The notes under the pieces: model-generated | Seen by the model: the letters and a program-made list of their open reading frames with translations, nothing else | Told to the model about the DNA's origin: nothing | Databases searched by the model: none | From: a virus | Direction: 5' to 3' (one strand) | Length of the DNA stretch: 36,663 bases | Virus record (IMG/VR): IMGVR_UViG_3300025889_000374 | Location: 1 to 36,663 of that record | Part shown: piece after piece, positions 6,497-34,218 of the stretch | Layout of the letters: the number at the start of each line of letters is the position of its first letter | Numbering within the stretch: position 1 is the stretch's first letter | Program-made: the position numbers and the translations under genes

Positions 6497-6507
6497 ATCT
6501 CGCCTCT

Positions 6508-13936: not shown

Positions 13937-13938
13937 GC

Positions 13939-13944
13939 TATAAT
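13939..13944 (+). promoter_or_regulatory. Extended -10 promoter for the HNH gene
   Basis: A perfect TATAAT is preceded by TGC, an extended -10 element, 25 bases before the HNH start codon. No good -35 hexamer stands 16-18 bases upstream, in the first codons of the lysozyme gene, which is acceptable for extended -10 promoters. Transcription would begin near 13951 and give a leader of roughly 18 bases containing the ribosome site TTGGAGGA. This is the only plus-strand promoter I can support. Confidence 0.6.
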
Positions 13945-13947
13945 CCC

Positions 13948-13968
13948 AACTGTACTTGGAGGACAGTT
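13948..13968 (+). promoter_or_regulatory. Leader hairpin with Shine-Dalgarno in its loop
   Basis: AACTGT (13948-13953) and ACAGTT (13963-13968) are perfect inverted repeats enclosing the loop ACTTGGAGG, which carries the ribosome site. The start codon follows directly at 13969. Transcripts from the nearby promoter would begin inside the left arm and lack the full stem, whereas longer plus-strand transcripts would contain it. Confidence 0.45.
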
Positions 13969-14535
13969 ATGAGCGCCCCTACCACTATTCACTCTAAAGG
14001 AATTGACTGGATTGTTTGTGCCACTGGTGAAATTAGAACTCCAGCGCACACAAGTACGTACACGCGAACGCGAAACGGAAAAAACCAGACGTTTACAGCC
14101 TCTTTTCAAGAAAAGCCGTTGGCACAAACAAAAACCAGAACTGGCTATCTGGAAGTTTCTGCGGCAAAAAACGGTAAGCGCATTAAGCATCTTGTGCATC
14201 GTCTTATCGGCATGGCGTTCGTTCCGGGATACGCCGAAGACCTTACCATAAACCATATAAACGGCGTAAAAACTGACAACCGCATTGAAAACTTGGAGTG
14301 GATTAGCCTTGCGGACAACACAAAGCATCAGTGGCGTACAGGATTGGTAAGCCTTCGCGGAGAAATGCAACCCAATCATAAACTTACAAGCAAACAAGTT
14401 GTCTACATTAGAAGGCTTCTTCGCCAAGGCGTAAGCGCAAATGCATTATCCGTTGTGGCCGGTGTTTCATCTAGCACGATAGACCTTATAAAAGACAATG
14501 TTCGGTGGAAAGACCTACCGGAGGATGCGGCCTGA
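13969..14535 (+). CDS. HNH endonuclease (free-standing homing type)
   Basis: 188 residues on the strand opposite to all neighbours. The start is the ATG at 13969 with TTGGAGGA eight bases upstream; the frame is open back to 13831 but that part overlaps the lysozyme. The HNH domain spans about 72-122: LVHRLIGMAF, then NHINGVKTDNRIENLEW with His96, Asn95 and Asn104 as metal and catalytic residues, and DNTKH near 116-120. A C-terminal helix-turn-helix (about 138-180, KLTSKQVVYIRRLLRQG then STIDLIK) probably binds DNA. Such genes are mobile and cut cognate alleles lacking them. Hand counts of two 60-base stretches gave 45-50% GC, lower than the surrounding genes. Its TGA ends exactly one base before the stop of the convergent holin-like gene, so it fills the gap between holin and lysozyme precisely. 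Confidence 0.9.
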   Translation: MSAPTTIHSKGIDWIVCATGEIRTPAHTSTYTRTRNGKNQTFTASFQEKPLAQTKTRTGYLEVSAAKNGKRIKHLVHRLIGMAFVPGYAEDLTINHINGVKTDNRIENLEWISLADNTKHQWRTGLVSLRGEMQPNHKLTSKQVVYIRRLLRQGVSANALSVVAGVSSSTIDLIKDNVRWKDLPEDAA

Positions 14536-21703: not shown

Positions 21704-22132
21704 CTAAGTGACCATTCGGATCACCGCGCTGTCTGCGGCGTTGGCAGGCATAGTGACCAAAAAGGTGGTGGTTGACGTTTTGTCAGCCCCAAAGTCCAGC
21801 ACCGCGATTGACTTGCCGCCCTTGCTGGAATTGTAAATCAACGCGCCCCGGGCGGTAAGTGCCGCTGTCCAAGATGCGTCGTTAAAGTCTATATACGTAG
21901 TCCGCGCCGACGGGGTAACTGCGGTGTTTATCGTCACGCCCGTAAGCTGCACCCCGCCAGCGGTGTACCCCGACGCTACAACTTCGTCTGCGCTCGTGTA
22001 GGCGGTCGTCGTCTGATCCAGCGAAGCGCTACTTGTGTACAGGGCGATCTTGATTACGTCCGTCAGGAGGTCATGCACCGCCTGCGGAAGCTCCGCCTTG
22101 AAGCTGTCAGTCTGGCCTTGGGTGATTGCCAT
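21704..22132 (-). CDS. Small tail structural protein
   Basis: 142 residues, with a one-base overlap to the adaptor-like gene upstream (TGATG type). The N-terminal helix (SFKAELPQAVHDLLTDVIKI) and the phrases ALYTSSASLDQTTTAYTSAD, SGYTAGGVQLTG and RGALIYNSSKGGKSIAVLDF are shared by many small phage virion proteins I have seen, none with a proven function known to me. Length and features parallel the following gene (see that entry). Likely a minor virion protein. Confidence 0.7.
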   Translation of the reverse strand: MAITQGQTDSFKAELPQAVHDLLTDVIKIALYTSSASLDQTTTAYTSADEVVASGYTAGGVQLTGVTINTAVTPSARTTYIDFNDASWTAALTARGALIYNSSKGGKSIAVLDFGADKTSTTTFLVTMPANAADSAVIRMVT

Positions 22133-22785
22133 CAGTTCACCTCAATCCGAAGCTGCCCGTCCCGGTATGCATCTTGCCGCAGCTTGCCGTCGCCAAGGTT
22201 CTTGAGCAGAGCAATGGACTGCGCGTACATATCTTGGTACAGCTTGACCATATCCTGTTCGCCCTTCATGAAGCGAATAGCCTCAACCAGCGCACCGTTC
22301 AGTAGCGCCGAGTCAAAGTTGTCGCCGAGCCACGTCTCGCTGGCAGTGACAATGCTCTCCGGGTAGAAGTAGTAGTGCAGTTCCGCCGCGTACGCAACGT
22401 CTGGAGTCGGGCCAACGATAAAGCTCAACTCTTTAGCTAGGTCAGAACGGGGGCCAAAGATGGCGTAGTACCGGGGCGCTCCAGTATCCGCTGCTGACGG
22501 ATAGGCTTCGCGGATGAAGTTCACATCCTTGTTCAGGAGATACGTGTAGTCCTGCGTAACCGGGTCGATGATGGCAAGAGAGAAGGCGGACAAGAAGTCC
22601 AACGGGGCAGACAGGTACTTGTTATTGGCCGTCAAAGTCCCCGTGACGTTCTTGCGAAGCGAAGGAAGCTGAACTGTGTTGTATATGCGCTGCTCGGTCT
22701 GCTGCGTAAACAGCTTGTACTCGTCCGCTGTGAATTGGTTTTCACAGATATCAGCGATATTGGCACACAAGTCAGCGTAGTTCAC
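22132..22785 (-). CDS. Adaptor-like (head-tail connector) protein
   Basis: 217 residues from a GTG at 22785, which overlaps the upstream TGA (GTGA) and has AGAGGA nine bases ahead. The N-terminus (NYADLCANIADICENQFTAD, then FTQQTEQRIYNTVQLPSLRK) and the middle part (LSAPLDFLSAFSLAI, LLNKDVNFIREAYP) match a phage family I associate with connector/adaptor rings that sit below the portal; the C-terminal half is a long helix bundle (ALLNGALVEAIRFMKGEQDM). Such proteins extend the portal channel and dock the tail. It is followed by tail proteins. Assignment is by pattern and context. Confidence 0.7.
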   Translation of the reverse strand: MNYADLCANIADICENQFTADEYKLFTQQTEQRIYNTVQLPSLRKNVTGTLTANNKYLSAPLDFLSAFSLAIIDPVTQDYTYLLNKDVNFIREAYPSAADTGAPRYYAIFGPRSDLAKELSFIVGPTPDVAYAAELHYYFYPESIVTASETWLGDNFDSALLNGALVEAIRFMKGEQDMVKLYQDMYAQSIALLKNLGDGKLRQDAYRDGQLRIEVN

Positions 22786-23045
22786 GCCATCGGTCCTCTA
22801 GCCATTACACCTTTGGTAGCCGCGCCCGTACCCCGGATTTTAATGCCGTTGGTCTTTGGCTCCTTGTACGGCTGGCTGCGGACGCCGCCCACAGATACTG
22901 CTAGGTCGTCGAGCGTGCCGCGATCCCCGCCGTCGTACCCAGCGTTCTTCAGGCTGACTTTTCCACCACTCATAGTGTGCGGCTTGGCGTAGACGGCAGC
23001 GTTGCCGACTTCCTTGCCCATCATCTTTTTGCTAAACGTAGCCAT
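22782..23045 (-). CDS. Small conserved phage protein with Gly-Gly elements
   Basis: 87 residues. Its ATG overlaps the upstream stop (TAATG), and the following gene starts within its own stop (GTGA). It is short, basic and Gly-rich: FSKKMMGKEVGNAAVYAKPH, TMSGGKVSLKNAGYDGGDRG, then VGGVRSQPYKEPKTNGIKIR. This looks like a conserved small phage protein that I have no function for. The SGGKV and DGGDRG elements are related in style to the Gly-Gly motif of its neighbours. Likely partly disordered. Confidence 0.75.
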   Translation of the reverse strand: MATFSKKMMGKEVGNAAVYAKPHTMSGGKVSLKNAGYDGGDRGTLDDLAVSVGGVRSQPYKEPKTNGIKIRGTGAATKGVMARGPMA

Positions 23046-23179
23046 TACTTGCCCCTTTTTTGAGCAGCGACCTTAGCCAGATTGCGGCCAAGTTTCTTCA
23101 TGTCTTCGTTGGTTTTGCCGCCGAATCCACCCTTGCCACCCTTTTGGATGGGAGCGGTCTTTGCACCTTGAGTAGCCAT
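23045..23179 (-). CDS. Tiny basic phage protein, 44 aa
   Basis: ATG at 23179 behind AGGAGA, stop overlapping the next start (TAATG). The 44-residue product reads MATQGAKTAPIQKGGKGGFG, then GKTNEDMKKLGRNLAKVAAQ, ending KRGK. The helix TNEDMKKLGRNLAKV is a pattern I recognise from very small phage structural-region proteins. It is strongly basic and could bind DNA or another virion protein. Good ribosome site, exact coupling to both neighbours and no better frame support it as a real gene. Confidence 0.75.
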   Translation of the reverse strand: MATQGAKTAPIQKGGKGGFGGKTNEDMKKLGRNLAKVAAQKRGK

Positions 23180-23187
23180 ATCGTCTC

Positions 23188-23544
23188 CTAAGAGGTTTGC
23201 ACCGTAACTATACCAACATAACCGACTGACACCAAGGTATTTGGCGTTAGCACGGAATCAAAGAACTTCGACCCACCTACAGGATTCCAGCCCCACTGAA
23301 TGTCCCGGTTCTGAACGTACCCAGCAAAATCAGGACGTGGCTCACGAACAGCCTGTGGATCAGCAACCGGGTACATACCAAGTTGCAACTGCGGATGATC
23401 TTCTTCCCAACACTCATTGCAAACCTTTATGGATGTCTGCTTCGTCTTGATGATGAGCTTCTTCAGGTCTTTCAGCTTGACTCGAATGCCGCACCTATCG
23501 CACTCCGCGATAGCCTTATTGCCAAGGGTAAACCGATTACTCAT
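23188..23544 (-). CDS. Zinc-ribbon phage protein (Cys4)
   Basis: 118 residues, start overlapping the upstream stop (ATGAG). Two Cys pairs, ECDRCG (residues 14-18) and VCNECW (about 41-46), are placed to bind one zinc ion. Between them lies a basic stretch (KLKDLKKLIIKTKQTSIK). After them, EDHPQLQLGMYPVADPQAVR and EPRPD form a conserved-looking segment, and the C-terminus is beta-type. I know this arrangement from tailed-phage structural regions but not a proven role; a small zinc-stabilised virion or assembly protein is plausible. Confidence 0.8.
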   Translation of the reverse strand: MSNRFTLGNKAIAECDRCGIRVKLKDLKKLIIKTKQTSIKVCNECWEEDHPQLQLGMYPVADPQAVREPRPDFAGYVQNRDIQWGWNPVGGSKFFDSVLTPNTLVSVGYVGIVTVQTS

Positions 23545-23978
23545 CGGTACTTAGCTTTCTTCGCGCCACGAGCCATGCCCCAGCCGCGCACAGAACCACC
23601 GCGCTTATAGTCCTGCTCACCTTTTGCCAGTTCACCTTGTTTGTATCCTGCTTCGCCAGCTTCCGCTACGTTCTCTCCAGCACCCGCTTTGCCGACTACT
23701 TTTTTGGCTTTCTGCAAAGCAGTTCCAGAGCCAACGACATCTCTTGCCGCCCGGGCCACTCTGTCACCAACACGATACGCCCTAGTAACAGGGATTGCGG
23801 ACAGGGCCGCTTTTGCAAGTTCGTTGTAGTCCCCGGCTTTTATTGCGTCCGCGCCTTCTAGGGCGGCTGCGGTCATGCCAACCGGCGGAAAAATCTGTGC
23901 CGCCTCGTACGCAAGGGGGTGGTTATTCTTGAGGTACTTATGCGTTCGCATGACGATGTTTTCGTCGGAGTCACTCAT
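23541..23978 (-). CDS. Small protein with KRGGSVRGWGMARGA tail
   Basis: 145 residues, ATG one base after the upstream stop and behind a GGGGGGTGA site. The N-terminal part is helical (YLKNNHPLAYEAAQIFPPVG, then AAALEGADAIKAGDYNELAK), the middle is Ala/Gly/Lys-rich, and the last 23 residues read DYKRGGSVRGWGMARGAKKA then KYR. That tail is almost identical to the tail of the gene at 24921-25442 and similar at the DNA level. The body resembles a short piece of the Ala-rich helical regions of the giant internal proteins. Function unknown; see the shared-motif finding. Confidence 0.75.
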   Translation of the reverse strand: MSDSDENIVMRTHKYLKNNHPLAYEAAQIFPPVGMTAAALEGADAIKAGDYNELAKAALSAIPVTRAYRVGDRVARAARDVVGSGTALQKAKKVVGKAGAGENVAEAGEAGYKQGELAKGEQDYKRGGSVRGWGMARGAKKAKYR

Positions 23979-23979
23979 A

Positions 23980-24672
23980 TCACCCCCCTATAAACATCTG
24001 TCGGGGTACAAACCGCACCGCAGCCTTGTCGCGGTCTTCGTCAGATGCTTGGTTCCATGCCTCGTCATACTGGGCTTTGAGCATCTGCATCCGGTCTAGC
24101 GCACCGGGGAGTTTCATGGACAGGTAGTACGCCAAGCCCGCCACCATTGCTGGAATCATGCGAAACGGCACATCCATCGTGTTCACGCCGTTGCCTGCAT
24201 CCTGAATCCTGCGCAGCCTCCAGTACACCAAAGTGTACGCCTGCGACCCATCTGGCACGGGCCAAACGGTCACGCTCGGGGCCTCCAAACGGTTAATCAG
24301 GATCTGGATTGGCCTAGCTTGCGTCAGCTTGTTCGGGATGCTGGAGTACGTAGATACACTAATCCGGGTAATGGTCAGGTCTGCTTGCGTCGATACGCTC
24401 CCCGCTCCAGTGCGGATGACATGCTCAATCAGGTCAACGGTGGCGTCCGGCAGCGAGTATGTTGCAGTCCCCTGCACCAGTGGGATCGAGCCTTGCTCGA
24501 TAGTCCACATGTTAATCCCGCGATTCGCCCAGTCTGCAAACAGCAGGTTCATGGACCGCCTAGCCGTGCGAAGGTCGTAACCCGAGCGTAGCTCCGAGCC
24601 GCAGCGCTCAAACGCTTCCTCAACTATCTCACTGAGGTCTAGGTTGAAGGTAGACGTTCCAGAGGTTGCCAT
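23980..24672 (-). CDS. Head-tail connector / packaged-DNA stabilisation-type protein
   Basis: 230 residues. The N-terminus (TSTFNLDLSEIVEEAFERCG, then SELRSGYDLRTARRSMNLLF and ADWANRGINMW) is a pattern I know from podovirus-type phages, comparable to adaptor proteins such as P22 gp4 or T7 gp11-like rings. A beta segment (IPLVQGTATYSLPDATVDLI), a further part with VWPVPDGSQAYTLVYWRLRR, and a C-terminal helix with DRMQMLKAQYDEAW complete it. It would bind the lower face of the portal and start the tail. The second adaptor-like gene at 22132-22785 has the same general plan. Confidence 0.75.
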   Translation of the reverse strand: MATSGTSTFNLDLSEIVEEAFERCGSELRSGYDLRTARRSMNLLFADWANRGINMWTIEQGSIPLVQGTATYSLPDATVDLIEHVIRTGAGSVSTQADLTITRISVSTYSSIPNKLTQARPIQILINRLEAPSVTVWPVPDGSQAYTLVYWRLRRIQDAGNGVNTMDVPFRMIPAMVAGLAYYLSMKLPGALDRMQMLKAQYDEAWNQASDEDRDKAAVRFVPRQMFIGG

Positions 24673-24675
24673 TAC

Positions 24676-24924
24676 TTACCCTTTAGCCGTCTTCGCAGAT
24701 TGCCTGAAAGCACTAGCTGTAGGCGCACCCTTTTGCCCCACAGAGCGCATTTTTTCGCCAGAGCCCTGAGCGATTCGCCTACGCTTTGCGTTGATGTTTG
24801 CATACAGCCCAACCTCCCCGCCTTCCGCATACTGCGTGAAGTCCGTATTGTCACGCCTCGCCTTGCGCGTGCCCCTCGGCATTTTGGAGGGGGCGATAGC
24901 CCCCATCCCACGGGACGGTCTCAT
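24676..24924 (-). CDS. Small basic phage protein with Gly-Gly motif
   Basis: 82 residues, start overlapping the upstream TGA (ATGA) with no strong ribosome site, so coupling drives translation. After a basic start, YAEGGEVGLYANINAKRRR and IAQGSGEKMRSVGQKGAPTA then SAFRQSAKTAKG form a conserved-looking unit that I recognise from small proteins of cyanophages and other environmental phages. No function is known to me; the charge suggests nucleic acid or capsid contact. A second frame (24672-24911) overlaps almost fully but has a poor composition and was rejected. Confidence 0.75.
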   Translation of the reverse strand: MRPSRGMGAIAPSKMPRGTRKARRDNTDFTQYAEGGEVGLYANINAKRRRIAQGSGEKMRSVGQKGAPTASAFRQSAKTAKG

Positions 24925-25442
24925 ACGATTTTCGCTGACCGCGCTCCGCGTGCCATTCCCCAGCCTTTTACAGAACCGCCTTTTTTCATACCGGTACGTT
25001 CTGCGTCTATGTCACGCAGCGCTTTAGAATTTTCCTCGTGGGCAATTCGGTCTTTAGCGTCTTCTGACAACTCTACGCGGCTGCTACTACCTAGTTTGTC
25101 TGCAATTGACTTAAGAACGCTAGACTTATTAACTAAACTTTTTCCAAGCCCGGTACGCTCGTCAATATCCCTACCCAGATCATAGCCGCCTTGCAGCGCT
25201 GCGTTAGCTAACCCTGCTCTGCCTACCGAACGAAGAATAGCTCTACCCCCAGCCTCTTGGGACCGCGTACGGTTCTGGGGGCGGGTATCGGCGGTATCTA
25301 GGCCGCGTTTAATGCGGTCGGCATCGGCTCTCTGAGACGCGACTACGTCCTCATACAAATTTGGCGTGAGGTCGTTTGCATTTGTCTGCCCCGGAGACCG
25401 ATACCGATACCCGGGAATTTCAGGCTTATTAAGGCGTCCCAT
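24921..25442 (-). CDS. Small protein with KKGGSVKGWGMARGA tail
   Basis: 173 residues from the ATG at 25442, which has AAGG seven bases ahead and lies just after the upstream stop; a longer frame to 25499 is possible but overlaps that gene. The start MGRLNKPEIPGYRYRSPGQT resembles the neighbouring MGRPTDQEIKD. The centre (about 65-130) is helical with GGRAILRSVGRAGLANAALQ. The tail reads MKKGGSVKGWGMARGARSAK then IV, matching the tail of the gene at 23541-23978. The conserved tail with an unrelated body suggests a modular peptide. Confidence 0.75.
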   Translation of the reverse strand: MGRLNKPEIPGYRYRSPGQTNANDLTPNLYEDVVASQRADADRIKRGLDTADTRPQNRTRSQEAGGRAILRSVGRAGLANAALQGGYDLGRDIDERTGLGKSLVNKSSVLKSIADKLGSSSRVELSEDAKDRIAHEENSKALRDIDAERTGMKKGGSVKGWGMARGARSAKIV

Positions 25443-25452
25443 ACATTGCCTT

Positions 25453-25665
25453 TCAGCAAATCCTGCCGCGAGTCTTACCGCGTTGAGCGCACCCATCAAT
25501 AGAGCCGCCTTTGGCGTAGCCGCGCTGCCCGCGAATCTTGTCCCGCAGGGGGGATGGGGTATCCATAGGGGCTTCTTCGGTGGAGGTCAAAGATTTTTGA
25601 TACGCCTTCTCAAGCTTAGGCGCGTTGATGATATCTTTAATCTCTTGGTCTGTAGGGCGTCCCAT
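25453..25665 (-). CDS. Small protein with AKGGSIDG tail
   Basis: 70 residues from the ATG at 25665, which overlaps the upstream TAA (TAATG) with GGTGGGAAG ahead; the frame also allows a GTG at 25671. The N-terminal half is helical (TDQEIKDIINAPKLEKAYQK), the centre is Pro/Ser/Thr-rich, and the end (GYAKGGSIDGCAQRGKTRGR then IC) is a divergent form of the Gly-Gly tail, with Cys instead of Trp. No family recognised. Confidence 0.7.
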   Translation of the reverse strand: MGRPTDQEIKDIINAPKLEKAYQKSLTSTEEAPMDTPSPLRDKIRGQRGYAKGGSIDGCAQRGKTRGRIC

Positions 25666-26033
25666 TAGCACTTCCCACCTTTCTTCATAGCGATCATCTT
25701 GCCCTTGGTTTTACCCTTGGACTCTACACCACCACCTTTAGCCATCTTCTTGGCCTCTTCCATCTTCTCACCCCGCGCGTACTGCTGCGGAGTAATCTTG
25801 CCGGACTTGATGGCCTTGGCTTCCTTAAGCTCTTCGCCGTAAGTCTCCTTACCCTTGAACAGGTTCATACCCTTGGTAGCCATAGCATCACCGCCTTTTG
25901 CAAATTTGCGGCCCTTATCAGCCGCTGTGAAGTCTTTACCCACACTCATAGGAACGCCAGCTTTCTTGGCAAATGACGGTGAGTGTGCAATAGCCGCCAT
26001 GAAGTTGTGTTGCGCTTTGGAAGAGGAGGGCAT
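25665..26033 (-). CDS. Conserved small phage protein (DUF3008-like), Gly-Gly rich
   Basis: 122 residues, one-base overlap with the gene upstream. The N-terminus (MPSSSKAQHNFMAAIAHSPS, then FAKKAGVPMSVGKDFTAADK) is a clear conserved phage pattern that I recall as DUF3008-like. Downstream come FAKGGDAMATKGMNLF, a charged helix (TYGEELKEAKAIKSGKITPQ) and an end with KMAKGGGVESKGKTKGKMIA then MKKGGKC. The repeated AKGG/KKGG elements tie it to the shared-motif set. Strongly basic; possible DNA- or capsid-contacting protein. Function unknown. Confidence 0.8.
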   Translation of the reverse strand: MPSSSKAQHNFMAAIAHSPSFAKKAGVPMSVGKDFTAADKGRKFAKGGDAMATKGMNLFKGKETYGEELKEAKAIKSGKITPQQYARGEKMEEAKKMAKGGGVESKGKTKGKMIAMKKGGKC

Positions 26034-26218
26034 TACTTTCTCCCAAACAAACGCTGTACGGTGTCGGTTTCCCAGATACGGATTCCGGTCCAGATGATGG
26101 TGAAGAGCGCGGCTATGGAAGGTAACATCTCTGCCAGAGTTCCTATAACTGTGGCAATCGACAAGACATCGATGATGTGCTTTGCGTTATCACCAAGGTG
26201 CGAAAGATTCTCTTTCAT
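26033..26218 (-). CDS. Small membrane protein
   Basis: 61 residues. The ATG at 26218, with GGAAG nine bases upstream and one base after the upstream stop, is preferred over a GTG at 26236. Residues about 12-42 are hydrophobic (IIDVLSIATVIGTLAEMLPS, then IAALFTIIWTGIRIW), enough for one long or two short membrane helices, followed by WETDTVQRLFGRK, a charged end. Small proteins with this topology occur as holins or membrane components in phage structural operons, but the lysis genes here lie 11 kb away, so the role is open. Confidence 0.7.
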   Translation of the reverse strand: MKENLSHLGDNAKHIIDVLSIATVIGTLAEMLPSIAALFTIIWTGIRIWETDTVQRLFGRK

Positions 26219-26219
26219 G

Positions 26220-26474
26220 TCAGCACTTCCACGCACGCAGACTTTTGTTTATGCGGCTGTTCGGATCGTTCGCCGTCTTGGCGCTGGTTAGCTTCTTCTT
26301 CATGCCCGACATCCGGGCACAGAATGAGTCCCGCCTCGGCCCGCCTTCAGGCTGCGGTGCCTTCAACCCCGGCTTACCGGGGTTAGCTTTGTTGTAGGAC
26401 GCCCGCCCCTTGGCGTTCAAGCCGCCGGACTCGGATTTGCCTTCCTTACGCTGCCATGCCGGGGATTTAGCCAT
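26220..26474 (-). CDS. DUF6321-like conserved phage protein
   Basis: 84 residues. The sequence AKSPAWQRKEGKSESGGLNA, then GRASYNKANPG, and the end SFCARMSGMKKKLTSAKTAN followed by NDPNSRINKSLRAWKC match a conserved phage family that I recall as DUF6321. Cys at the SFCARM and WKC positions are part of that pattern. No biochemical role is established to my knowledge. The gene starts one base after the upstream stop, within the coupled cluster of small genes. Confidence 0.8.
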   Translation of the reverse strand: MAKSPAWQRKEGKSESGGLNAKGRASYNKANPGKPGLKAPQPEGGPRRDSFCARMSGMKKKLTSAKTANDPNSRINKSLRAWKC

Positions 26475-26475
26475 G

Positions 26476-27054
26476 TCATACCTTTTTGGCTATGCCGTAG
26501 CCCCTGTAGCCGGTTACGCGGCCACCGGCCTTGTACCCCTTGACGCTACCACCTTTTTTCATGCCCCCTCCAAGGGGCTGCATGTAGTTACCTGCCGCTG
26601 CGGTAGCCCCAGCTACTTTATCCTCCGGAGACACGAAAGACGAAGGCTTAGGCATGTAGTTACGCGCCGCCGCAGCGGCCTCAGCTACTTTAGCCTCCGG
26701 GGATACGGGAGTCGGGGTCCGCAACTGATCTAACGTCACGCCGGGGTTACGTTGCAGCTTTGCGGCCTCGTATTCAGACATCTGCGGCTGCGGCGGGAGG
26801 CCCTTTGTCGGCGACCCGGAGCCTTGCTGGGGCATGGGGCTTGGCTGCGCCGTGAGGCCGGGTGATGGCAATCCGGAGCCTTGCAGGGGTGTGGGGCTTA
26901 GTTGCGGTGGGAGGCCCTTTGTCGGTGACCCGGAGCCTTGCTGGGGCATAGGCGTACTACGCGGAGGTTGTACCCCACGCGAAAGTACGGAGGTTCGTGT
27001 TCCCCGCGACGGTTCGGCGGGGCGCAGGGGTATCCGGGGCGGTTGAAAAGCCAT
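26476..27054 (-). CDS. Pro-rich small protein with KKGGSVKGYKAGG tail
   Basis: 192 residues. The first 90 residues are Pro/Ser/Gly-rich repeats built on MPQQGSGSPTKGLPPQ, present twice exactly and once in a variant (PLQGSGLPSPGL). The middle holds two copies of a helix-plus-linker unit (SPEAKVAEAAAAARNYMPKP and SPEDKVAGATAAAGNYMQPL). The tail (GMKKGGSVKGYKAGGRVTGY, then RGYGIAKKV) is a variant of the tail in two other small proteins. It is mostly disordered by composition. Function unknown. Confidence 0.75.
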   Translation of the reverse strand: MAFQPPRIPLRPAEPSRGTRTSVLSRGVQPPRSTPMPQQGSGSPTKGLPPQLSPTPLQGSGLPSPGLTAQPSPMPQQGSGSPTKGLPPQPQMSEYEAAKLQRNPGVTLDQLRTPTPVSPEAKVAEAAAAARNYMPKPSSFVSPEDKVAGATAAAGNYMQPLGGGMKKGGSVKGYKAGGRVTGYRGYGIAKKV

Positions 27055-27066
27055 GATTACTCCGTC

Positions 27067-27351
27067 TCACCCATAAAAGACAATAGCCGTCGTACTTGCA
27101 GCGCACACCGCAGATACGTTAGTGTTGCACTTGATGCCCTCGCCGGGGAACAGGATATTTAGCGCACCAATCGCAGCAGGGGCTGTGAATGAGAACACGG
27201 CGGTGCCGCCCGTACCGTCGTTCAGAACAACCGTGCCGCCCGAAGGATAGCTGATCGTCACGCCCTTGATTCGGGTGGGTCCGGCAAAAATTGTGGTCGT
27301 AGCTCCAGCAGCCGCAGCGCCGGATTTAACGTCGGTTTGCATCATGCTCAA
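27067..27351 (-). CDS. Small structural protein
   Basis: 94 residues, with AGGAGATTG ahead of the ATG. After a short leader (SMMQTDVKSGAAAAGATTTI), the rest is beta strands with Gly/Thr/Ala turns (RIKGVTISYPSGGTVVLNDG, then TAVFSFTAPAAIGALNILFP, and an end of AASTTAIVFYG). The size and composition suggest a small virion component such as a decoration or tail-tip protein. It is separated from the previous gene by a hairpin that could reduce read-through. Confidence 0.7.
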   Translation of the reverse strand: MSMMQTDVKSGAAAAGATTTIFAGPTRIKGVTISYPSGGTVVLNDGTGGTAVFSFTAPAAIGALNILFPGEGIKCNTNVSAVCAASTTAIVFYG

Positions 27352-27364
27352 TCTCCTGTAAACA

Positions 27365-27380
27365 GGGGGCCGAAGCCCCC
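27365..27380 (-). terminator. Stem-loop between two structural genes (possible partial terminator)
   Basis: On the minus strand, GGGGGC and GCCCCC form a perfect 6-bp GC stem with a TTCG loop in the 34-base gap between the genes ending at 27386 and starting at 27351. It is followed by TGTTTAC, not a long T run, so it would act as a weak terminator or a processing/stability element rather than a full stop. Confidence 0.5.
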
Positions 27381-27385
27381 ATCAA

Positions 27386-27868
27386 TTAAGCAGAGACCGG
27401 GTTAGCAATCGCCGTCGTGCCGCTCACGGCCTTCTGCGCGTAGTTGACCGTGACAATAAAGCGGCCAGCACCCAGAGTGCCAGTGCCCACTACGTTACGA
27501 ATGTAGACGGTAGTATCCGCCGAAGTGGAAGTCTGCCATGCCAACTGCGTTGCAGCGGTCGTGGTGCCCGTAAAACGCCCGCCAAGCGAGGTAGCAACAG
27601 CGGCGGACAGTTCAGCGCCGCCAGACGTGGTTCCGACAGAGACGGTGGTCGTTCCCACCGTGGCTGCGACAACTTGGTCAATTACGATGTTGATGATCTG
27701 CGCCCCAGCGGGCAGAATCATTGCGGCTACGTCGTAGTTACCCGTCGTGGTGCCCGCCAGATTGCCAGAGTCGTACGATTGAGAGAGAACCACAAGGCCA
27801 GCATTGCGACCGGGGTTGTTCAGCACCGTACCTACGCGCAGGGGGCCGGAAAAGGAGGCAAAGCTCAT
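27386..27868 (-). CDS. Structural protein, first gene of second transcription unit
   Basis: 160 residues, ATG behind AAGGA. The N-terminus (SFASFSGPLRVGTVLNNPGR) leads into strands with LVVLSQSYDSG, YDVAAMILPAGAQIINIVID, TVSVGTTSGGAELSAAVATS and an end of GRFIVTVNYAQKAVSGTTAI. It is a compact beta-sandwich-like protein with no enzymatic motif, and I recall similar short proteins close to capsid genes of environmental phages. Its gene is the first after the capsid terminator and has its own promoter, so it may be produced in high amounts. Confidence 0.75.
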   Translation of the reverse strand: MSFASFSGPLRVGTVLNNPGRNAGLVVLSQSYDSGNLAGTTTGNYDVAAMILPAGAQIINIVIDQVVAATVGTTTVSVGTTSGGAELSAAVATSLGGRFTGTTTAATQLAWQTSTSADTTVYIRNVVGTGTLGAGRFIVTVNYAQKAVSGTTAIANPVSA

Positions 27869-27892
27869 GATTTTTTCCTTACATACAAGTTA

Positions 27893-27937
27893 GGCGTAGC
27901 AATCGGTATGTCGTCTGCCGGAACAGTTTGCTACGCC
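27893..27937 (-). promoter_or_regulatory. Perfect 10-bp inverted repeat in the 5' leader
   Basis: GGCGTAGCAA (27893-27902) and its exact complement TTGCTACGCC (27928-27937) flank a 25-base spacer within the leader of the unit that begins at the promoter at 27957-27985. In the RNA this would form a stable stem. A CCGGATTTCCGG palindrome (27936-27947) touches its edge just after the predicted start site. Confidence 0.6.
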
Positions 27938-27956
27938 GGATTTCCGGAATGGGGTC

Positions 27957-27985
27957 AATATAGCAGGTTTTCACCCTACGGGCAA
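27957..27985 (-). promoter_or_regulatory. Promoter for genes downstream of the capsid gene
   Basis: Minus strand: TTGCCC (-35) at 27985-27980, a 17-base spacer, then TGC followed by TATATT (-10) at 27962-27957. The -10 matches five of six consensus bases and has an extended TGn. Transcription would begin near 27950, about 80 bases before the next gene. It lies directly behind the capsid terminator, which fits a second transcription unit. Confidence 0.65.
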
Positions 27986-28050
27986 CAGCGTATTGGACTT
28001 AGTTACAGGTAGTGTGGTTCGACACGGTAAACAAGAGTTACGACACAGGC

Positions 28051-28081
28051 AAAAAGAAAAAGGCCCCCGAAGGAGCCTTTT
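28051..28081 (-). terminator. Rho-independent terminator of the capsid operon
   Basis: Minus strand: a 10-bp stem (AAAAGGCTCC with GGGGCCTTTT, one G-U pair) closes a TTCG loop with the ideal C-G closing pair and is followed by TTTCTTTTT-type tract. It begins about 20 bases after the major capsid protein stop. Strong canonical form. Confidence 0.92.
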
Positions 28082-28102
28082 CTAGGTGCTAACCCTGATA
28101 AA

Positions 28103-29020
28103 TCAGGACGAACCGGGGGAGCCGTAGGCACCCAGCGGGTCCGAGACGCCGAAGCTGTAACGCTCACGGGCCTTGTAACGCTGGTTGCCAGTATCAAAAT
28201 CCCCGTCCATCGAAGTGGACAGAGGCGTACGCACGAAGTGCTTCAGGCCGTTCGGAACATCCGTGGTCAGGAACCAAGCGTTCGTATCGGTCAAGAAGTG
28301 GTTGACGGTGTAGCCTTCGGGGATCGAACCGTTGTTCTTCAGCGCGTTGATGTCGTTATCGGTCGTGCCGACACGCAGCGACGTTTCCAGCAGTCGGGTT
28401 GCGACGAACTGGAGAGCCGGAGGAACAATCAGCTTACGGGGCTTGGCTGCGATCAGCAGGCCGCGCTCATCCGTCCACGCAGCGATCTGAATAACGGCGG
28501 CTTCCAGAGAAGTCTCGTTCAGGTCAGCGCCAGTGGTAGGACGGTTGCTGTTGGTGCCGCCGCTGACCAGCGGGTGGTCAGTAGCAAACAGAACCTTGCC
28601 GTCGCCGTAGGTGGGGTTGCCTGCGCCGGTAAAGCCCGTGTTCAGGATGGCCGCAGCCTTGATCTGCTTGGTATATGCCATAGCCCGAGCCAGAGACTTC
28701 GTGTAGCGTGCCGACAGGCTGTCGTACAGGTTGTCTTCCATCGCCTCTTCGGTGATAGAGAAGCCCATAGCGATAGTCTCGTGGACGTACCGAGCGGTCC
28801 ATGCCTCTTGGGCGTTGTCATAAGTAATCGCCTGACCTTCGTTCTTCACAGGCGCTGCGGAGAAGCCAGAGAGCTTGGTCTCTTCTTCGAACGAACGCTC
28901 AGAAGTTTCGGTTTCGTAGATTTCCTTATGCTCTTCGCCGTAGCGGGCATACTCCATACCAAACAGCGCGTTGAGGCCGGGGAGGAGTTCTTTAAGTAGC
29001 TGTGCGCGTGAAATTGCCAT
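28103..29020 (-). CDS. Major capsid protein (HK97 fold, Mu gpT-like)
   Basis: 305 residues, ATG behind AAGGAG. Features typical of the family: SERSFEEETKLSGFSAAPVK (about 39-58, E-loop region), YVHETIAMGFSITEEAMEDN (about 78-97), a spine-like helix with ARYTKSLARAMAYTKQIKAA, GDGKVLFATDHPLVSGG (about 139-155), ADLNETSLEAAVIQI, and a C-terminal domain ending in RYKARERYSFGVSDPLGAYG. The pattern is close to the Mu gpT-type major head subunits. No prohead protease or delta domain is seen, so assembly probably depends on the separate scaffold-like gene upstream. The gene is closed by a strong terminator. Confidence 0.9.
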   Translation of the reverse strand: MAISRAQLLKELLPGLNALFGMEYARYGEEHKEIYETETSERSFEEETKLSGFSAAPVKNEGQAITYDNAQEAWTARYVHETIAMGFSITEEAMEDNLYDSLSARYTKSLARAMAYTKQIKAAAILNTGFTGAGNPTYGDGKVLFATDHPLVSGGTNSNRPTTGADLNETSLEAAVIQIAAWTDERGLLIAAKPRKLIVPPALQFVATRLLETSLRVGTTDNDINALKNNGSIPEGYTVNHFLTDTNAWFLTTDVPNGLKHFVRTPLSTSMDGDFDTGNQRYKARERYSFGVSDPLGAYGSPGSS

Positions 29021-29030
29021 GATTTACTCC

Positions 29031-29636
29031 TTAGAAGCCAACGGCGTTGTTATACGAATGCCAGCCGATGTTCCACTTCACCAGCAAATCAGTCTTGGCA
29101 TCACCGGGGGTAGACGCAAAACCAACAATACGGAAGGGAGCGGTCGTGGTAATCGACGTAGCGTTTACCGAGGCGGTGGAGTTACCGTTCTGAGTCGAGC
29201 CGGTAGTAATAGCGCCAGAGGTCATGTAGACGTTTTCGCCAAGTTTCGCCTGCGCCACAGAGCCGTCAGCCTGAACTTGCAGGATGACATCCGGATCATC
29301 AACGACGTACGCAGTGACAACACCCGTGGTACTAGCGGGGTAGTACTGGGCGTAAATCTGCTGCCCTTGCGCGTTGATGTACGAGCAGCCAACGAACACG
29401 CCAACCGCACCAGTCAGGGCGGTGCCTGCCGGGAATGCGTTAGTGGTAGCGTCCGCGCCGGTTGCGGTAACCAGTTGCAGATATCCGGTGGAGTGAACGT
29501 AGACCAACGATCCGTTATAGATGTTGGAAGCGTACCCTGCCGGGTCGATGAGAAGAGAGCGGGTAGAGCCAGCGTATTGCTGACCGCCCACTAGGTTTAC
29601 GGGTTTGAAGCCGTAAGGAGTAGCAGTTGCTGCCAT
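29031..29636 (-). CDS. Capsid decoration/stabilisation-like protein
   Basis: 201 residues, ATG behind AGGAGC. The start (ATATPYGFKPVNLVGGQQYA, then STRSLLIDPAGYASNIYNGS) is a pattern I know from small head proteins next to capsid genes of short-tailed and environmental phages. The rest is a beta-rich domain, with YVVDDPDVILQVQADGSVAQ and a C-terminal WNIGWHSYNNAVGF. It would bind the capsid surface or stabilise it. It is read immediately before the capsid gene with a 10-base gap, so both share a transcript. Confidence 0.75.
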   Translation of the reverse strand: MAATATPYGFKPVNLVGGQQYAGSTRSLLIDPAGYASNIYNGSLVYVHSTGYLQLVTATGADATTNAFPAGTALTGAVGVFVGCSYINAQGQQIYAQYYPASTTGVVTAYVVDDPDVILQVQADGSVAQAKLGENVYMTSGAITTGSTQNGNSTASVNATSITTTAPFRIVGFASTPGDAKTDLLVKWNIGWHSYNNAVGF

Positions 29637-29650
29637 AAAAAGCTCCTAAG

Positions 29651-30103
29651 TTAAGAACCGCGCCCAAACGAAACCTTGGACTGACGCTCACGGAAGAGCG
29701 GCATACGAGGATCGTTTTCACGCATGAAGTTGTTGTCAACAGAATTCATCTGACCGTCCGCTTGCTGCCGGTAGTAGGCATCGCGTTGCTCAGTGAACTC
29801 AGTGGGTGTTTTGCAAAGGAGCAGACCACCAATCTCGATGCTGTCGGGGTAGGTTTTACCTGCGCCCATCAGTTGAATCTCGGGGTGTTCCGACGCCTTT
29901 ACAGGCTCCCAACCCTCACGCATTTTCGAGGAGATGTTCATGGGATCAGGTTCGCCGCGTGCGCTGATACGAATCCAACGGAATGCATATCCCGGCTCCG
30001 GATGCGGGTCGGGCAGCAGTTGCGGGGGCATCCACTTTGCAGGGCGCTCCAGCTTCGCGCGGGTTTCGTTCTCACGAGTCAATTTAGGTCCGTTCATGTT
30101 CAC
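29651..30103 (-). CDS. Conserved protein of head region, unknown function
   Basis: 150 residues, start overlapping the scaffold-like gene's stop (ATGA, 4 bases). The sequence is highly charged with few strands: PKLTRENETRAKLERPAKWM, PPQLLPDPHPEPGYAFRWIR, GGLLLCKTPTEFTEQRDAYY, and an end of RENDPRMPLFRERQSKVSFG. I have seen similar short proteins between scaffold and capsid genes in environmental phages; none has a function known to me. Translation is coupled, which suggests a stoichiometric link to the scaffold. Confidence 0.7.
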   Translation of the reverse strand: MNMNGPKLTRENETRAKLERPAKWMPPQLLPDPHPEPGYAFRWIRISARGEPDPMNISSKMREGWEPVKASEHPEIQLMGAGKTYPDSIEIGGLLLCKTPTEFTEQRDAYYRQQADGQMNSVDNNFMRENDPRMPLFRERQSKVSFGRGS

Positions 30104-31044
30104 TTCCTCATTTCTTCCGCAACCTTACGAGCATACAGTTCCAGAGGAACTCCAAGCCGTTTGGCGATATTCACCTGCGTTTGGGTAAGTACGACTTTCT
30201 TGGGCGCAGTACTCCTTGTGGCGGGTGCAACCACGTTCCGTTTATTAGTGCGCTGAGAAGGAGCATCAGCGGTTTCCTCAGAGTCGAACTTCTCTGGAAA
30301 CACTTGCCGCACGCGAGAATTAACCCGTTCGTAGTATTCGTCAGACCGTGGGTCAACCCCCTCTTTTACTAGCTTGCTGTGCAAGCCAAGAGCGAAGCTG
30401 GTCATCTCGTCGTCAGAACCAAACCAGTCATTTTCCCTCTGCCAAGCAGCAGCTTTTTCGTCTACTGCTGCGGGCTGTGGTGTTTGTACCACAGGTTTAG
30501 ATTCTTGTACAGGGGCGGGCCGGAAATTACTTACACGGTCTGCTTTTATCTTAACTGCGGTCATTTTCTCCTGAGCCGCAACCAGCGCGTCTGCATCCCC
30601 TGCCTCGTATGCATTCTTATATTCGCGCTTAACCTCCTCAAGCTCCTGCTGAACTACCTTCTTGGCCTGCTCCAACAGCGCTTTTTGCCCCTCATTCAGG
30701 GAGCCTTTGAGCTTGCGGTTCTCTTCGGCGATAGCCTGCGCAGCACGAACAGCCTCTTCCTTCTCTCGGAGTGCGGCTTCTTTGGCGCGGCGTTCTTCGT
30801 GGTAGCCCTTGGTAAAGTGCTTGATTCGCTTCTTGGCGCTCTCAGAGTACGCCTCAAGCTCTTCTTCCGTGGGGTCCGACGGGGGTTCCGCCATTGGTTT
30901 GCGGCCACGATCCTTCTCAGGGGTATCGTCCACAATCTCGATTTCAGTGTCGGCGGCGGGTGTAACTACCTTACCGCCCTCGCGCGGATTCTTTTTCTCC
31001 GCCTCGTCAGGGAATACAAACTCGGTCTTTTCGATTTCAGCCAT
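30100..31044 (-). CDS. Scaffold-like protein
   Basis: 314 residues, ATG behind AAGGAG. An acidic disordered N-terminus (about 1-70) is followed by a long charged helix (about 70-165, KKRIKHFTKGYHEERRAKEA and EEAVRAAQAIAEENRKLKGS), which is a likely coiled coil, then a Pro-rich linker, a helix (ENDWFGSDDEMTSFALGLHS) and a basic end with LTQTQVNIAKRLGVPLELYA then RKVAEEMRK. This order (acidic N-terminus, coiled coil, basic helical end that contacts coat protein) is the architecture of phage scaffolding proteins. It lies between portal and capsid genes, as expected. The short C-terminal helix is a recurring signature in scaffolds of this type. Confidence 0.8.
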   Translation of the reverse strand: MAEIEKTEFVFPDEAEKKNPREGGKVVTPAADTEIEIVDDTPEKDRGRKPMAEPPSDPTEEELEAYSESAKKRIKHFTKGYHEERRAKEAALREKEEAVRAAQAIAEENRKLKGSLNEGQKALLEQAKKVVQQELEEVKREYKNAYEAGDADALVAAQEKMTAVKIKADRVSNFRPAPVQESKPVVQTPQPAAVDEKAAAWQRENDWFGSDDEMTSFALGLHSKLVKEGVDPRSDEYYERVNSRVRQVFPEKFDSEETADAPSQRTNKRNVVAPATRSTAPKKVVLTQTQVNIAKRLGVPLELYARKVAEEMRK

Positions 31045-31053
31045 GACTACTCC

Positions 31054-31458
31054 TTAAACACGCTGGACACCGCGAGGGTCTTGGATGGTTGCTTCAACAG
31101 AGTCATCATTGATGATCCTGAATTCACGGCCATGAATCTTCATGCGCGTACCGGAGTTTGGACGAACGATTACAAAGTCCCCCACCTTGCAGGACGGCCC
31201 CGACGGGAATCGCTTCTCGTCCTTGAACGCATCCGGCCCCATCTTCATGACGAACAGCACGGGGGAGAGAAGCTCCTCGTACATCATCGTCTGCCCAGCC
31301 TTGAGCAGCCCACCTTCGTATTCCTCTTTAGCTTCAGGCAGCATACACAGCAAGTGGTACGTCTGAGGCTCCGGAATCTGGCTGGCTTTTTCCTCTGAAG
31401 TTTTGCCAAGTACCCCCGAAAGGTCTACGGCATTCACGTCAAACTCATTCATCTTCAT
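31054..31458 (-). CDS. GroES-like co-chaperonin
   Basis: 134 residues from the first ATG, or 132 from the ATG at 31452 that is nine bases from GGAAG and may be the real start. Residues 35-125 match the GroES fold: a strand (YHLLCMLPEAK), a loop region with EYEGGLLKAG at the mobile-loop position, a strand with SPVLFVMKMGPDAF, the hallmark KVGDFVIVRPNSGT (about 91-104), then MKIHGREFRIINDDSVEATI. In GroES these form a ring cap that binds GroEL through the mobile loop and encloses folding substrate. T4 gp31 does this for its capsid protein. The N-terminal 30 residues are extra. The gene lies between portal and scaffold, so the capsid protein is the likely client. This is from pattern, not alignment. 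Confidence 0.75.
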   Translation of the reverse strand: MKMNEFDVNAVDLSGVLGKTSEEKASQIPEPQTYHLLCMLPEAKEEYEGGLLKAGQTMMYEELLSPVLFVMKMGPDAFKDEKRFPSGPSCKVGDFVIVRPNSGTRMKIHGREFRIINDDSVEATIQDPRGVQRV

Positions 31459-31636
31459 TTGCTTCCAATCGTCGTCGCAGGTCTTGTATGTGCATCTTTA
31501 CGAGGTTAAGACCGTGTAACACCCCGCAAATCCTCTGGTACTCACCAAAGTCCTTACACCGCCCGTTTTTCAGGGCGTCTGTCATGTCAACCTCATTGAG
31601 GTTCATCATCTTTTCCAGCGCGTCTAGCTCAGTCAT
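31445..31636 (-). CDS. Small helical protein
   Basis: 63 residues. It overlaps the portal stop by four bases (ATGA) and the GroES-like gene by 14 bases, so the three genes are tightly coupled. The whole chain is helical and charged (ELDALEKMMNLNEVDMTDAL, then GRCKDFGEYQRICGVLHGLN and MHIQDLRRRLEANEDE). I do not recognise a family; similar small helical genes sit after portal genes in other phages, which is all that can be said. Confidence 0.7.
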   Translation of the reverse strand: MTELDALEKMMNLNEVDMTDALKNGRCKDFGEYQRICGVLHGLNLVKMHIQDLRRRLEANEDE

Positions 31637-34218
31637 TCTTTAGCCTCCGGCTTCTGTGCAGCCGCTTGCGCCGCCCGCTGTGCCATCATTTCCGCGTGGG
31701 ATAGCTTCTGCTGGTGGGCGTGGTGGGCCTGCATCAGCTTCTGACCATGAACCTGCCCGCCGTGGGCCATGCCCTGCTGGTGTTGCTGCTGGGCCATTTG
31801 TAGCTCTTGGGCGTGTTTCTCCTGCATCATCTGCATCTGAGCCTGCTGCTGGGACATCTCCAACATGTGGCGTTGTTGCAACATTTCCGGCGTTTCGCCA
31901 ATCTTGGACGCCAACTCCTGCTGCTTCAGGGCCAGTTCTGCCTGCTTGACTGCGAGGTCGCCCGCGACCTTTTTAGCTTTGGTAGCGGCTTCCTGAGACT
32001 TGATCTGCAACTCCGCCTGCTGAATCTGCACCAACGGGTCTTGTGCGGCCTGCTGGGCCTGCTGTTGCTGAACCTGTCCTTTGCTCTGCGCCAGAACCTG
32101 TTGAGCGGCCTGCGCGACGATTTTCGCCAGCGCGGTCTCGACTGCCGGGGGCATTTCCTCATCCGGGGGCGGCAGTGGCACGCCAAGTTGCTCTTCGACC
32201 TTCTTGCGGTAGGCGAACGCCAGATGCTCAGAGACGTGCGCCATGATCTCCGCTTGCATCTTCTGCGCCTGTGGGGACTGCCCAATCTGCGCCATCAGGA
32301 GCGGGTCTTGCATCAGGGCGGTGTGTACGGCAATGTGGGCGTCGTGATCTTGGTAGATAAACGCCTTGACGGGTTTGCCGGTAAGCAGTGCCATGTTCTC
32401 AGACACCGGGTCGCGCGGGGTCATATCGTCTTCAATCGGCACGAGCTTTGCGGCGTTCTTGATCCCCAAGACCTCCAGCATCTGGCGGTGCAACTGCGGC
32501 AAGTCGTAAATCTGCGGTGCGCCTTGGGCCAACTGGATGGCAGCTTGGTACTGCATGATCCGCTGCGCCATCGTGGAACTGTTGGGGTCGCTGACGGGGA
32601 TAACCTCCACCAGCGAGTAGTCTTCCCGCTTGGCCTTGCGGTCGCCCGTAGCCGGGTCGAACTCGTACTCCGTAGGGGCGCTATCCCGAATGATTGCCGC
32701 CAGAAGTTTGAACTCCTGCTTCATCGAGGCGTGGACCCGAGCCTGCACGGCACTCATGGTCTTCAGTGTGCGCTCAAGGAGCGCCAGCGTGGTGCCGACA
32801 GGCGCGTTAGCGCTCATGTCGCTAATCTTCATGTCCGAGATGGCACCCAGCCTGCGGGCTTCGTCGGTGATCTGGTTCAGAAGCGCCAAGAGGGTCTGGC
32901 TAGGCTCCTTGTACGGCAGGGGCATGATGTTGTCACGCACCGTCCCAGAGGCCACATCCACGTCCCTGAACTCCCCCGGAGCGATAGGCGTGTCGTCGCC
33001 CTTGATCCGCAGCCCCTTGGACTTCAACCCACCGGGCAGGTTAGCCAGCGACCCCGCGTCCACCAACTGACGGATCAGGCTCGTGCCCGCACGGGCATAG
33101 CCACCAATCAGGTTAATCAGCCCCAATCCGTACGGCCCGAAGCCGGGGATGTACGTGTACTGCACGAAATACTGGTTCTTGATCCGGTTCTTGTCGTCTT
33201 CGTCCCAGTTGCGCCGGATTGCCAGCACCTCGTTCGTTCCGCGCTCGATGGTGATTACATAAGGAAGCGCAATGCCGTCGTCGTCCTCATACCCCGGCAA
33301 GTCGTAATCAACGTGGATCTCCAGAAGCTGGAAGCGCTCATCATCAGTTAGGGTATACCCTTGCTCCTCGGCTTTCTTCTTCTCCACATCCGTGGAAATC
33401 TGCACGGGGTCGCCCAGATCGACATCCCGGTAAAACCCAGCTACCTGAAGTTTGCGTACTTCGTTGGGAGTCTTGCGCATTACATGCGTAACTCGCTCTG
33501 CTGCCCGGGCGTCGGAAGCTCCGTAAGGAATGATGATCTCCTCGGCGGGCACGAACACGGACACCTGACGATCCAGCGACGGGTCTTTGTACACTTTCTT
33601 GAACGCCGCACCCGACAGCCCAAGGTTAAACAACATGCGCTCATGCTCGGGGCGGTACTCCGGCATCTTCTCCAGAATCTGGTAGTTCATGTCCTCCTGC
33701 ACCCGTGCAGCGGCATCTTCCTTCATCTTGTCGATGGCACCAACAATCTGGGTCTTGACCGGCCCCTGTGCAGGGAACGTCTCCGTTGCCATCTCCGCTT
33801 GGAAGCGAATGGCCGCTTCCGTCAGCACGGTGCTGTACACCCCGCAGGCCCCTGACCAAGGCTCCGTACGCTCGTCGTACTTCATGCCCAGCACTTCCAA
33901 GCCCTTGACGTAGGCATCTACCCAGTCTTTGCGCGACGCGATGTCCGCATCTACGAGTGCGATTAGCTCGGAGGACAGCATGGCGAGGTCTTTCTCCTCC
34001 ATGTACTCCGCAAGGTTCGAGTCGAATGACTCGCCTTCCTCCGCGTCGGGGATCAGCGTAACCTCCACACTCCCGTCAGACAGCGTCACCTGATCCGGGT
34101 TCTCGATCTCTATTTCAAGCGCAGCAGGCCCTTCGCCAGTGTCGAACTTGTCCGGTACGATGGAGTCAAGCCCCAAAGGAGCCGCGTAAAGAGACGGGGA
34201 CATGCTGTTCGTTGCCAT
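31633..34218 (-). CDS. Portal protein (large, P22-type)
   Basis: 861 residues, ATG behind AAAGGA. The N-terminal domain carries SRKDWVDAYVKGLEVLGMKY (about 95-114), WSGACGVYSTVLTEAAIRFQ and AEMATETFPAQGPVKTQI (about 120-157), the typical wing and stem elements of P22-like portals. Downstream segments (RAGTSLIRQLVDAGSLANLP and GLKSKGLRIKGD; MPLPYKEPSQTLLALLNQI; VHASMKQEFKLLAAII) fit the crown and stem region. The ring of twelve subunits forms the DNA entrance in the capsid. The C-terminal tail from about 690 is a long Gln/Ala/Met coiled-coil-like helix that ends in a His/Gln-rich segment with AHGGQVHGQKL. It is longer than P22's portal, mostly in this tail, and its stop is shared with the next gene. 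Confidence 0.85.
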   Translation of the reverse strand: MATNSMSPSLYAAPLGLDSIVPDKFDTGEGPAALEIEIENPDQVTLSDGSVEVTLIPDAEEGESFDSNLAEYMEEKDLAMLSSELIALVDADIASRKDWVDAYVKGLEVLGMKYDERTEPWSGACGVYSTVLTEAAIRFQAEMATETFPAQGPVKTQIVGAIDKMKEDAAARVQEDMNYQILEKMPEYRPEHERMLFNLGLSGAAFKKVYKDPSLDRQVSVFVPAEEIIIPYGASDARAAERVTHVMRKTPNEVRKLQVAGFYRDVDLGDPVQISTDVEKKKAEEQGYTLTDDERFQLLEIHVDYDLPGYEDDDGIALPYVITIERGTNEVLAIRRNWDEDDKNRIKNQYFVQYTYIPGFGPYGLGLINLIGGYARAGTSLIRQLVDAGSLANLPGGLKSKGLRIKGDDTPIAPGEFRDVDVASGTVRDNIMPLPYKEPSQTLLALLNQITDEARRLGAISDMKISDMSANAPVGTTLALLERTLKTMSAVQARVHASMKQEFKLLAAIIRDSAPTEYEFDPATGDRKAKREDYSLVEVIPVSDPNSSTMAQRIMQYQAAIQLAQGAPQIYDLPQLHRQMLEVLGIKNAAKLVPIEDDMTPRDPVSENMALLTGKPVKAFIYQDHDAHIAVHTALMQDPLLMAQIGQSPQAQKMQAEIMAHVSEHLAFAYRKKVEEQLGVPLPPPDEEMPPAVETALAKIVAQAAQQVLAQSKGQVQQQQAQQAAQDPLVQIQQAELQIKSQEAATKAKKVAGDLAVKQAELALKQQELASKIGETPEMLQQRHMLEMSQQQAQMQMMQEKHAQELQMAQQQHQQGMAHGGQVHGQKLMQAHHAHQQKLSHAEMMAQRAAQAAAQKPEAKE

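Follow-up and report, generated by a model that had tools for sequence, protein, structure and literature searches.

Why do small proteins with unrelated bodies, encoded by one and the same phage, end in a common short peptide? The question is raised by IMG/VR virus record IMGVR_UViG_3300025889_000374, of which the whole stretch of 36,663 bases (hereafter, the window) was analyzed; it represents part of the genome of an HTVC023P/HTVC027P-type podophage. A first-pass annotation of this DNA had described a recurrent glycine-glycine (GG) tail on many otherwise unrelated proteins of the virion region, and had interpreted it as an assembly, packaging, or capsid-interior targeting tag or as a hairpin that binds a common partner. 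The tail is a C-terminal element, is confined to the head-neck genes, is carried by many different bodies, and co-varies in sequence within genomes. It may be a docking peptide that brings variable small proteins into the head, and thus correspond, at the C-terminus, to the capsid targeting sequence (CTS) of phage T4; we assign an even chance to this interpretation.

What, to begin with, does the tail consist of? Every peptide quoted in the annotation is present where it had been placed, and the motif [KA].GG.[VI].G occurs five times in six tail proteins of the window, as against 0.03 occurrences expected from composition shuffles (0 of 500 shuffles reached five). The GG tail is real, although GG represents only its hinge; the conserved core runs on to the C-terminus as KGGxVsassRADG(I/C)AQRGKT(K/R)GKMV-COOH (canonical form, KGGxVSASSRADGIAQRGKTRGKMV-COOH). 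The consensus of 205 tails, at the C-terminus, is S-S/K-R-A/G-D-G-I/C-A-Q-R-G-K-T-R/K-G-K/R-M/F/I/Y-V/C/I, with the key positions G, D, G, and T conserved in 93%, 85%, 94%, and 92% of tails, respectively, and the last 26 residues carry a mean charge of +5.9. The core, which is ~14-15 residues long and follows the presumably flexible hinge, ends at the C-terminus. The copies in the window, with their hidden Markov model (HMM) scores and protein lengths in amino acids (aa) where given, are the following:

25456..25518, minus strand: canonical tail YAKGGSIDGCAQRGKTRGRIC of the 72-aa protein 25453-25671 (HMM 43 bits), ending at the C-terminus
24924..24986, minus strand: GWGMARGA variant tail KKGGSVKGWGMARGARSAKIV of protein 24921-25442 (HMM 28-31 bits)
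23544..23606, minus strand: GWGMARGA variant tail KRGGSVRGWGMARGAKKAKYR of protein 23541-23978, an unrelated body (HMM 31-33 bits)
25668..25745, minus strand: degenerate core MAKGGGVESKGKTKGKMI with the 8-residue extension AMKKGGKC, protein 25665-26033 (HMM 16-17 bits)
26479..26562, minus strand: weak tail MKKGGSVKGYKAGGRVTGYRGYGIAKKV of protein 26476-27054 (HMM 10-12 bits, marginal)
22785..22856, minus strand: type I tail KTNGIKIRGTGAATKGVMARGPMA of protein 22782-23045 (HMM 55-56 bits)

Among the carriers named earlier, 24921-25442, 23541-23978, and 25453-25671 stand, 25665-26033 is degenerate, and 26476-27054 is weak. The core match in 25665-26033 ends 8 residues before the C-terminus, an ending (+8 to +10) also seen in relatives, and no homologue of the body of 26476-27054 was found in the fetched loci. 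The annotation had overlooked protein 22782-23045, whose C-terminal end is formed by another tail type that is related to the first (type I; GIKIRGTGAATKGVMARGPMA); every one of the 11 invariant positions in the type I alignment lies within the last 21 residues, and exactly one such tail is present per genome in 20 of 20 genomes (some partial). Just upstream of the type I gene, a 61-81-aa protein (L085:2607-2798, L109:1276-1521, and relatives) bears the core near its N-terminus (MAFTRSADGIAKKGKTEGKNLGDSGP), and this side family is the only clear non-C-terminal use of the core.

Other proteins that had been counted as carriers proved not to be. The motif is absent (zero occurrences) from the three giant proteins, whose GG elements lack the core and are not C-terminal, and the portal peptide AHGGQVHG and the AEGGEVG of 24676-24924 are likewise internal and without the core. 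The giant proteins do share an aromatic/M-x-x-GG hinge, observed 63 times in relatives with 13.9 expected (4.5-fold). Ejection-type relatives of 2584-9918 (G005, G006, G017, and G018) often end in [FY]AxGGx[VI]...GLADLL, i.e., the same hinge with a different, helical-looking C-terminal end. The proposed hairpin also found no support, as AlphaFold2 models of two tail proteins, built from shallow alignments, gave the tails no confident structure (predicted local distance difference test scores of ~38 for the final residues of 24921-25442 and 54-60 for type I). Ten tails gave a single non-significant PHROG hit (E=0.078) in searches of Pfam and PHROG profiles, and a PDB search with the tail profile gave no match. 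Short-peptide tblastn against phages and plasmids was also without a match, the query being so short that it is probably below the sensitivity of the search.

Is the C-terminal position a property of the element or of the way in which it was sought? To avoid circularity, a degenerate DNA pattern for DG-x-A-x-RGKT, blind to frames and stops, was searched in viral contigs, yielding at least 120 hit stretches and, in the loci fetched, 148 pattern matches. All 148 are in frame with a stop codon no more than 17 residues on, and 123 lie exactly five residues before the stop. The 257 gigabases of cellular genomes contained 15 pattern hits, a number roughly in keeping with base composition (~7.5 expected for uniform bases by our own calculation), and only about three of these look like tails. 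Of 115 viral pieces, 112 bear a landmark gene of this phage lineage, which marks the tail as the signature of a single lineage. Relatives of the window are abundant in IMG/VR, with at least 600 matches for each of two queries.

Where in these genomes, then, do the tails reside? All reading frames of at least 30 aa (14,905 frames) were scanned in 20 environmental genomes (window included, some partial) and six cultured relatives. The environmental genomes yielded 70 tail hits, as compared with 3 in a reversed control, and each of the 20 has tails. Map inspection placed all 70 in the head-neck interval between the capsid gene and the 217-aa connector gene; where one of these was unlabelled, the interval ran from the scaffold or adaptor gene to the next labelled structural gene. 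The type I gene always lies just before the 217-aa structural gene, wherever the latter is labelled. Tails also occur in isolated phages: the freshwater cyanophages MinM2 (Synechococcus) and Pag-Yong1 (Planktothrix) encode a 308-aa protein between their capsid and adaptor genes that carries a canonical tail (...YASGGMIGRDGCAKRGRTKGRFI; C-terminal peptide of MM2_5 and UMO75986.1, respectively, RDGCAKRGRTKGRFI). Caulobacter phage RW gave no tail hit in the stretch searched. The interval in the window is delimited by these landmarks:

28103..29020, minus strand: major capsid protein (PHROG 371 major head protein), bounding the tail interval on the left in transcription order
23980..24672, minus strand: SU10-type adaptor (neck) protein (Pfam PF24175, E=1.3e-11), within the tail interval
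22132..22785, minus strand: 217-aa virion structural protein (PHROG 2941, E=4e-14), right landmark of the interval and a weak lead in mirror-tree comparisons

Such a location invites an alternative in which the tails have their docking site at the neck (portal, adaptor, or 217-aa connector) rather than in the capsid interior, and the small proteins serve as neck or tail-channel plugs or as assembly factors. The placement of the tail genes between capsid and connector genes, with type I just before the 217-aa gene, agrees with this alternative, and the 217-aa protein is the only one to stand out in the mirror-tree comparisons (rho 0.197, 1/500), with a weak signal that is not strong after eight comparisons and comes from differing sample sizes. 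Several tail proteins per phage would, however, compete for a 6-12-fold site. On account of the weak signal of the connector, neck docking stays the main rival, albeit an unlikely one.

What are the tails attached to? Loose single linkage groups the 286 unique bodies into 74 clusters, and strict criteria group them into 145. The bodies are basic (+6.9 per 100 aa vs. +1.7 in other proteins) and hydrophilic, with many disorder-promoting residues; ten long representatives gave no Pfam match and at most one non-significant PHROG profile. The basic bodies and the charge of the last 26 residues would also be expected if the tails were nonspecific DNA- or RNA-binding extensions of head-packaged or nucleoid-binding proteins. 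A charge-driven contact, however, needs no strict residues, no fixed C-terminal distance, and no genome-specific spelling, which renders such extensions an improbable explanation. The largest cluster (76 members, including window protein 25665-26033) starts with a recognizable module:

25905..26033, minus strand: N-terminal module SKAQHNF...ADKGRKF of protein 25665-26033, 70% identical to a 58-aa protein of the phiKZ-type phage PA7

The same module opens structural proteins of other jumbo phages (Rak2-type), e.g., CBB_322, which was detected in virions by mass spectrometry with 30 unique peptides (PMC5259590). The module held in common with a virion-detected protein is indirect evidence that at least the SKAQHNF carrier is a virion protein. 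Separately, many tail-bearing bodies (L008, L131, L144, and L274) begin with MKK-x-KR-[YF]-x-x-GG, possibly a second shared N-terminal motif.

Did the peptide spread over these bodies as DNA, or are its copies kept alike by selection? Tails on non-homologous bodies are 70% identical if they come from one contig and 58% identical if they come from different contigs, a difference reached in 0 of 2,000 permutations of the labels. This within-genome excess persists when the alphabet is reduced and when the loci are those selected solely by homology of capsid or adaptor; in the pattern-chosen subset it is weaker but present (13 of 2,000, or 30 of 2,000 with the reduced alphabet). Codons at identical residues nevertheless differ in 55% of cases within genomes vs. 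58% between them, and the third base of fourfold codons differs in 62% vs. 63%. Peptides that are alike within a genome while their codons are as different as between genomes argue for selection for one shared partner per genome and against recent DNA copying. The simplest reading of these sequences is that different genes of one phage track one genome-specific optimum, i.e., one shared partner. Accordingly, of the earlier suggestion that a short module had spread among unrelated bodies, what survives is that the module behaves as if binding one common partner, and not a recent spread as DNA, as synonymous sites differ within genomes as they do between them.

The two window genes that bear the GWGMARGA variant on unrelated bodies (24921-25442 and 23541-23978) had been cited for the DNA-level similarity of their tails. 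The similarity exists, but is no greater than the shared amino acids require (same codon at 7 of 16 shared positions, with 6.5 expected from codon usage), and the 60 bases just upstream match at chance (16/60). Homologues of the 24921-25442 body (L297, L244, L204, L124, L095, L157, and L205) carry other tail versions, mostly canonical, such that the tail changes on a conserved body. One tail on many bodies, together with tail change on a conserved body, is also what a recombination junction might leave behind, similar DNA at gene ends aiding the shuffling of small genes and the peptide itself having no function. This explanation is highly improbable in view of the near saturation of synonymous positions even within a genome, the codon-usage expectation and dissimilar flanks of the window pair, and the end of conservation at the stop codon.

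A genome-specific optimum could also reflect the host. In that case, after infection, the tail would direct the ejected proteins to some component of the host; the rapidly varying bodies would be host-takeover factors, their variation being of the kind expected of accessory factors. Little probability is accorded to this possibility, as the genes are confined to the head-neck structural block.

How might docking to a shared partner operate? As we envisage it, the tail would be the C-terminal docking peptide of small, basic, probably disordered late proteins. In any one phage, every tail protein would dock at a single common site on a partner that the phage itself encodes, the most likely candidate being a protein present in many copies inside the prohead (on the capsid or scaffold side). 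With the GG hinge, the peptide would be able to extend into its groove; its constant spacing from the free C-terminus and the hydrophobic last pair (KMV, RFV, or KMC) may both belong to the contact. Through such binding, small proteins that vary from phage to phage would enter the virion, from which they would later be ejected. The capsid-interior targeting proposed in the first-pass annotation is plausible on these grounds. Several points nevertheless weigh against this mechanism. No virion proteomics of a tail-bearing phage was found. Ancient homogenization followed by synonymous saturation could also have produced the within-genome co-variation, and the mirror-tree correlations are low for the capsid protein (rho 0.10) and the portal (rho 0.07) and negative for the scaffold. 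Moreover, tails were not found in the searched stretches of the cultured marine phages HTVC027P, CRP-902, and 023Pt_psg01 or of the freshwater phage DSL-LC04, all of which have homologous capsid proteins; the partner therefore does not require tails.

Does the element belong to a known system? Short terminal peptides are known to recruit unrelated proteins to a viral shell. By analogy, the closest working parallel is the T4 CTS, the ten terminal residues common to the small basic internal proteins IPI, IPII, and IPIII, whose bodies diverge quickly (PMC9026906). Both are short terminal peptides on small, basic, fast-changing late proteins, with a changeable set of carriers per phage, and the core of the window tail is shared by 74-145 divergent body clusters. 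The T4 signal, however, is N-terminal and is removed by the prohead protease gp21, whereas the window tail is unrelated in sequence, lies at the C-terminus (no more than 17 residues away in 148 of 148 matches), has no identified cleavage site, and is a targeting signal only putatively; a dedicated protease gene was not recognized in the protein scan. In position, the closest parallel is that of the cargo-loading peptides of encapsulins, which are short, C-terminal, and recruit a variety of proteins to the inside of an HK97-fold shell (PMC8346489). The window tail is likewise a short C-terminal peptide behind a GG hinge of presumed flexibility. Encapsulin cargo consists of folded enzymes, whereas the tails reside on small disorder-prone proteins, have a longer basic core of different sequence that would bind a shell only putatively, and are encoded in a tailed-phage head-neck block with terminase, portal, and capsid genes rather than in an encapsulin shell operon. 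The N-terminal position and cleavage of the T4 signal, and the tie of encapsulin peptides to shell operons, place the window tail outside both groups. None of the papers searched prints the core strings, and there appears to be no earlier description of the tail sequence, of its position at the C-terminus in a tailed phage, or of its spelling being specific to the genome.

A further likeness is found within the window itself, where a DUF6321 protein (PF19846) is encoded at 26220-26474. DUF6321 is also a short C-terminal module on proteins of very different length beside head genes (PHROG hits of 99-928 positions), but spans 72 positions, has another sequence, and occurs in marine cyanophages and pelagiphages. 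The PHROG families of 99-928 positions end in this domain, as does a cyanomyovirus protein adjoining the terminase, and in L025 and L238 it is followed by the GG tail. Protein 24676-24924 contains the module NINAKRRRIAQGSGEKM...SAKTAKG (PHROG 16028), which is also fused ahead of DUF6321 (PHROG 11180); several small modules of this gene block thus recombine mutually. PDB searches for relatives of the capsid protein, portal, DUF6321, and one tail protein returned none that were convincing.

The surroundings of the block agree with an HTVC023P-type podophage, as the terminase, portal, capsid protein, and adaptor are homologous and their order is conserved; identity to Pelagibacter phage HTVC027P is 41% for the large terminase subunit (TerL) and 42% for the portal. 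On the minus strand, the small and large terminase subunits are followed by the portal, a GroES-like protein, a probable scaffold, the capsid protein (PHROG 371), the small-gene block, the SU10-type adaptor (PF24175), the 217-aa structural protein, tail genes, and large ejection-type proteins, where the names TerS, GroES, scaffold, and ejection rest on gene order and resemblance. An HNH-endonuclease-like open reading frame lies on the opposite strand at 13831-14535 (+), in the lysis region, and proteins 17847-18938 and 6508-9918 contain tandem degenerate repeats (SGSYLVSGQAATLLRSKLLTAA; TYITGPTTGADTFPNATTTETIT).

What would the tail mean for this lineage? It is conceivable, if somewhat doubtful, that a head-loading code is in operation, wherein an abundant freshwater lineage tags its fast-changing small basic proteins with a genome-specific C-terminal peptide read by one of its own head proteins, such that a new gene gaining 14 codons would turn into virion cargo and reach the host. 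Should the tail serve as a loading signal, a single search would name the cargo candidates of a lineage that lakes commonly harbor and whose genes are mostly hypothetical, and a short C-terminal handle for bringing foreign proteins into a podophage head would be at hand. The tails would likewise provide a case, open to direct testing, in which several proteins evolve in concert with one receptor.

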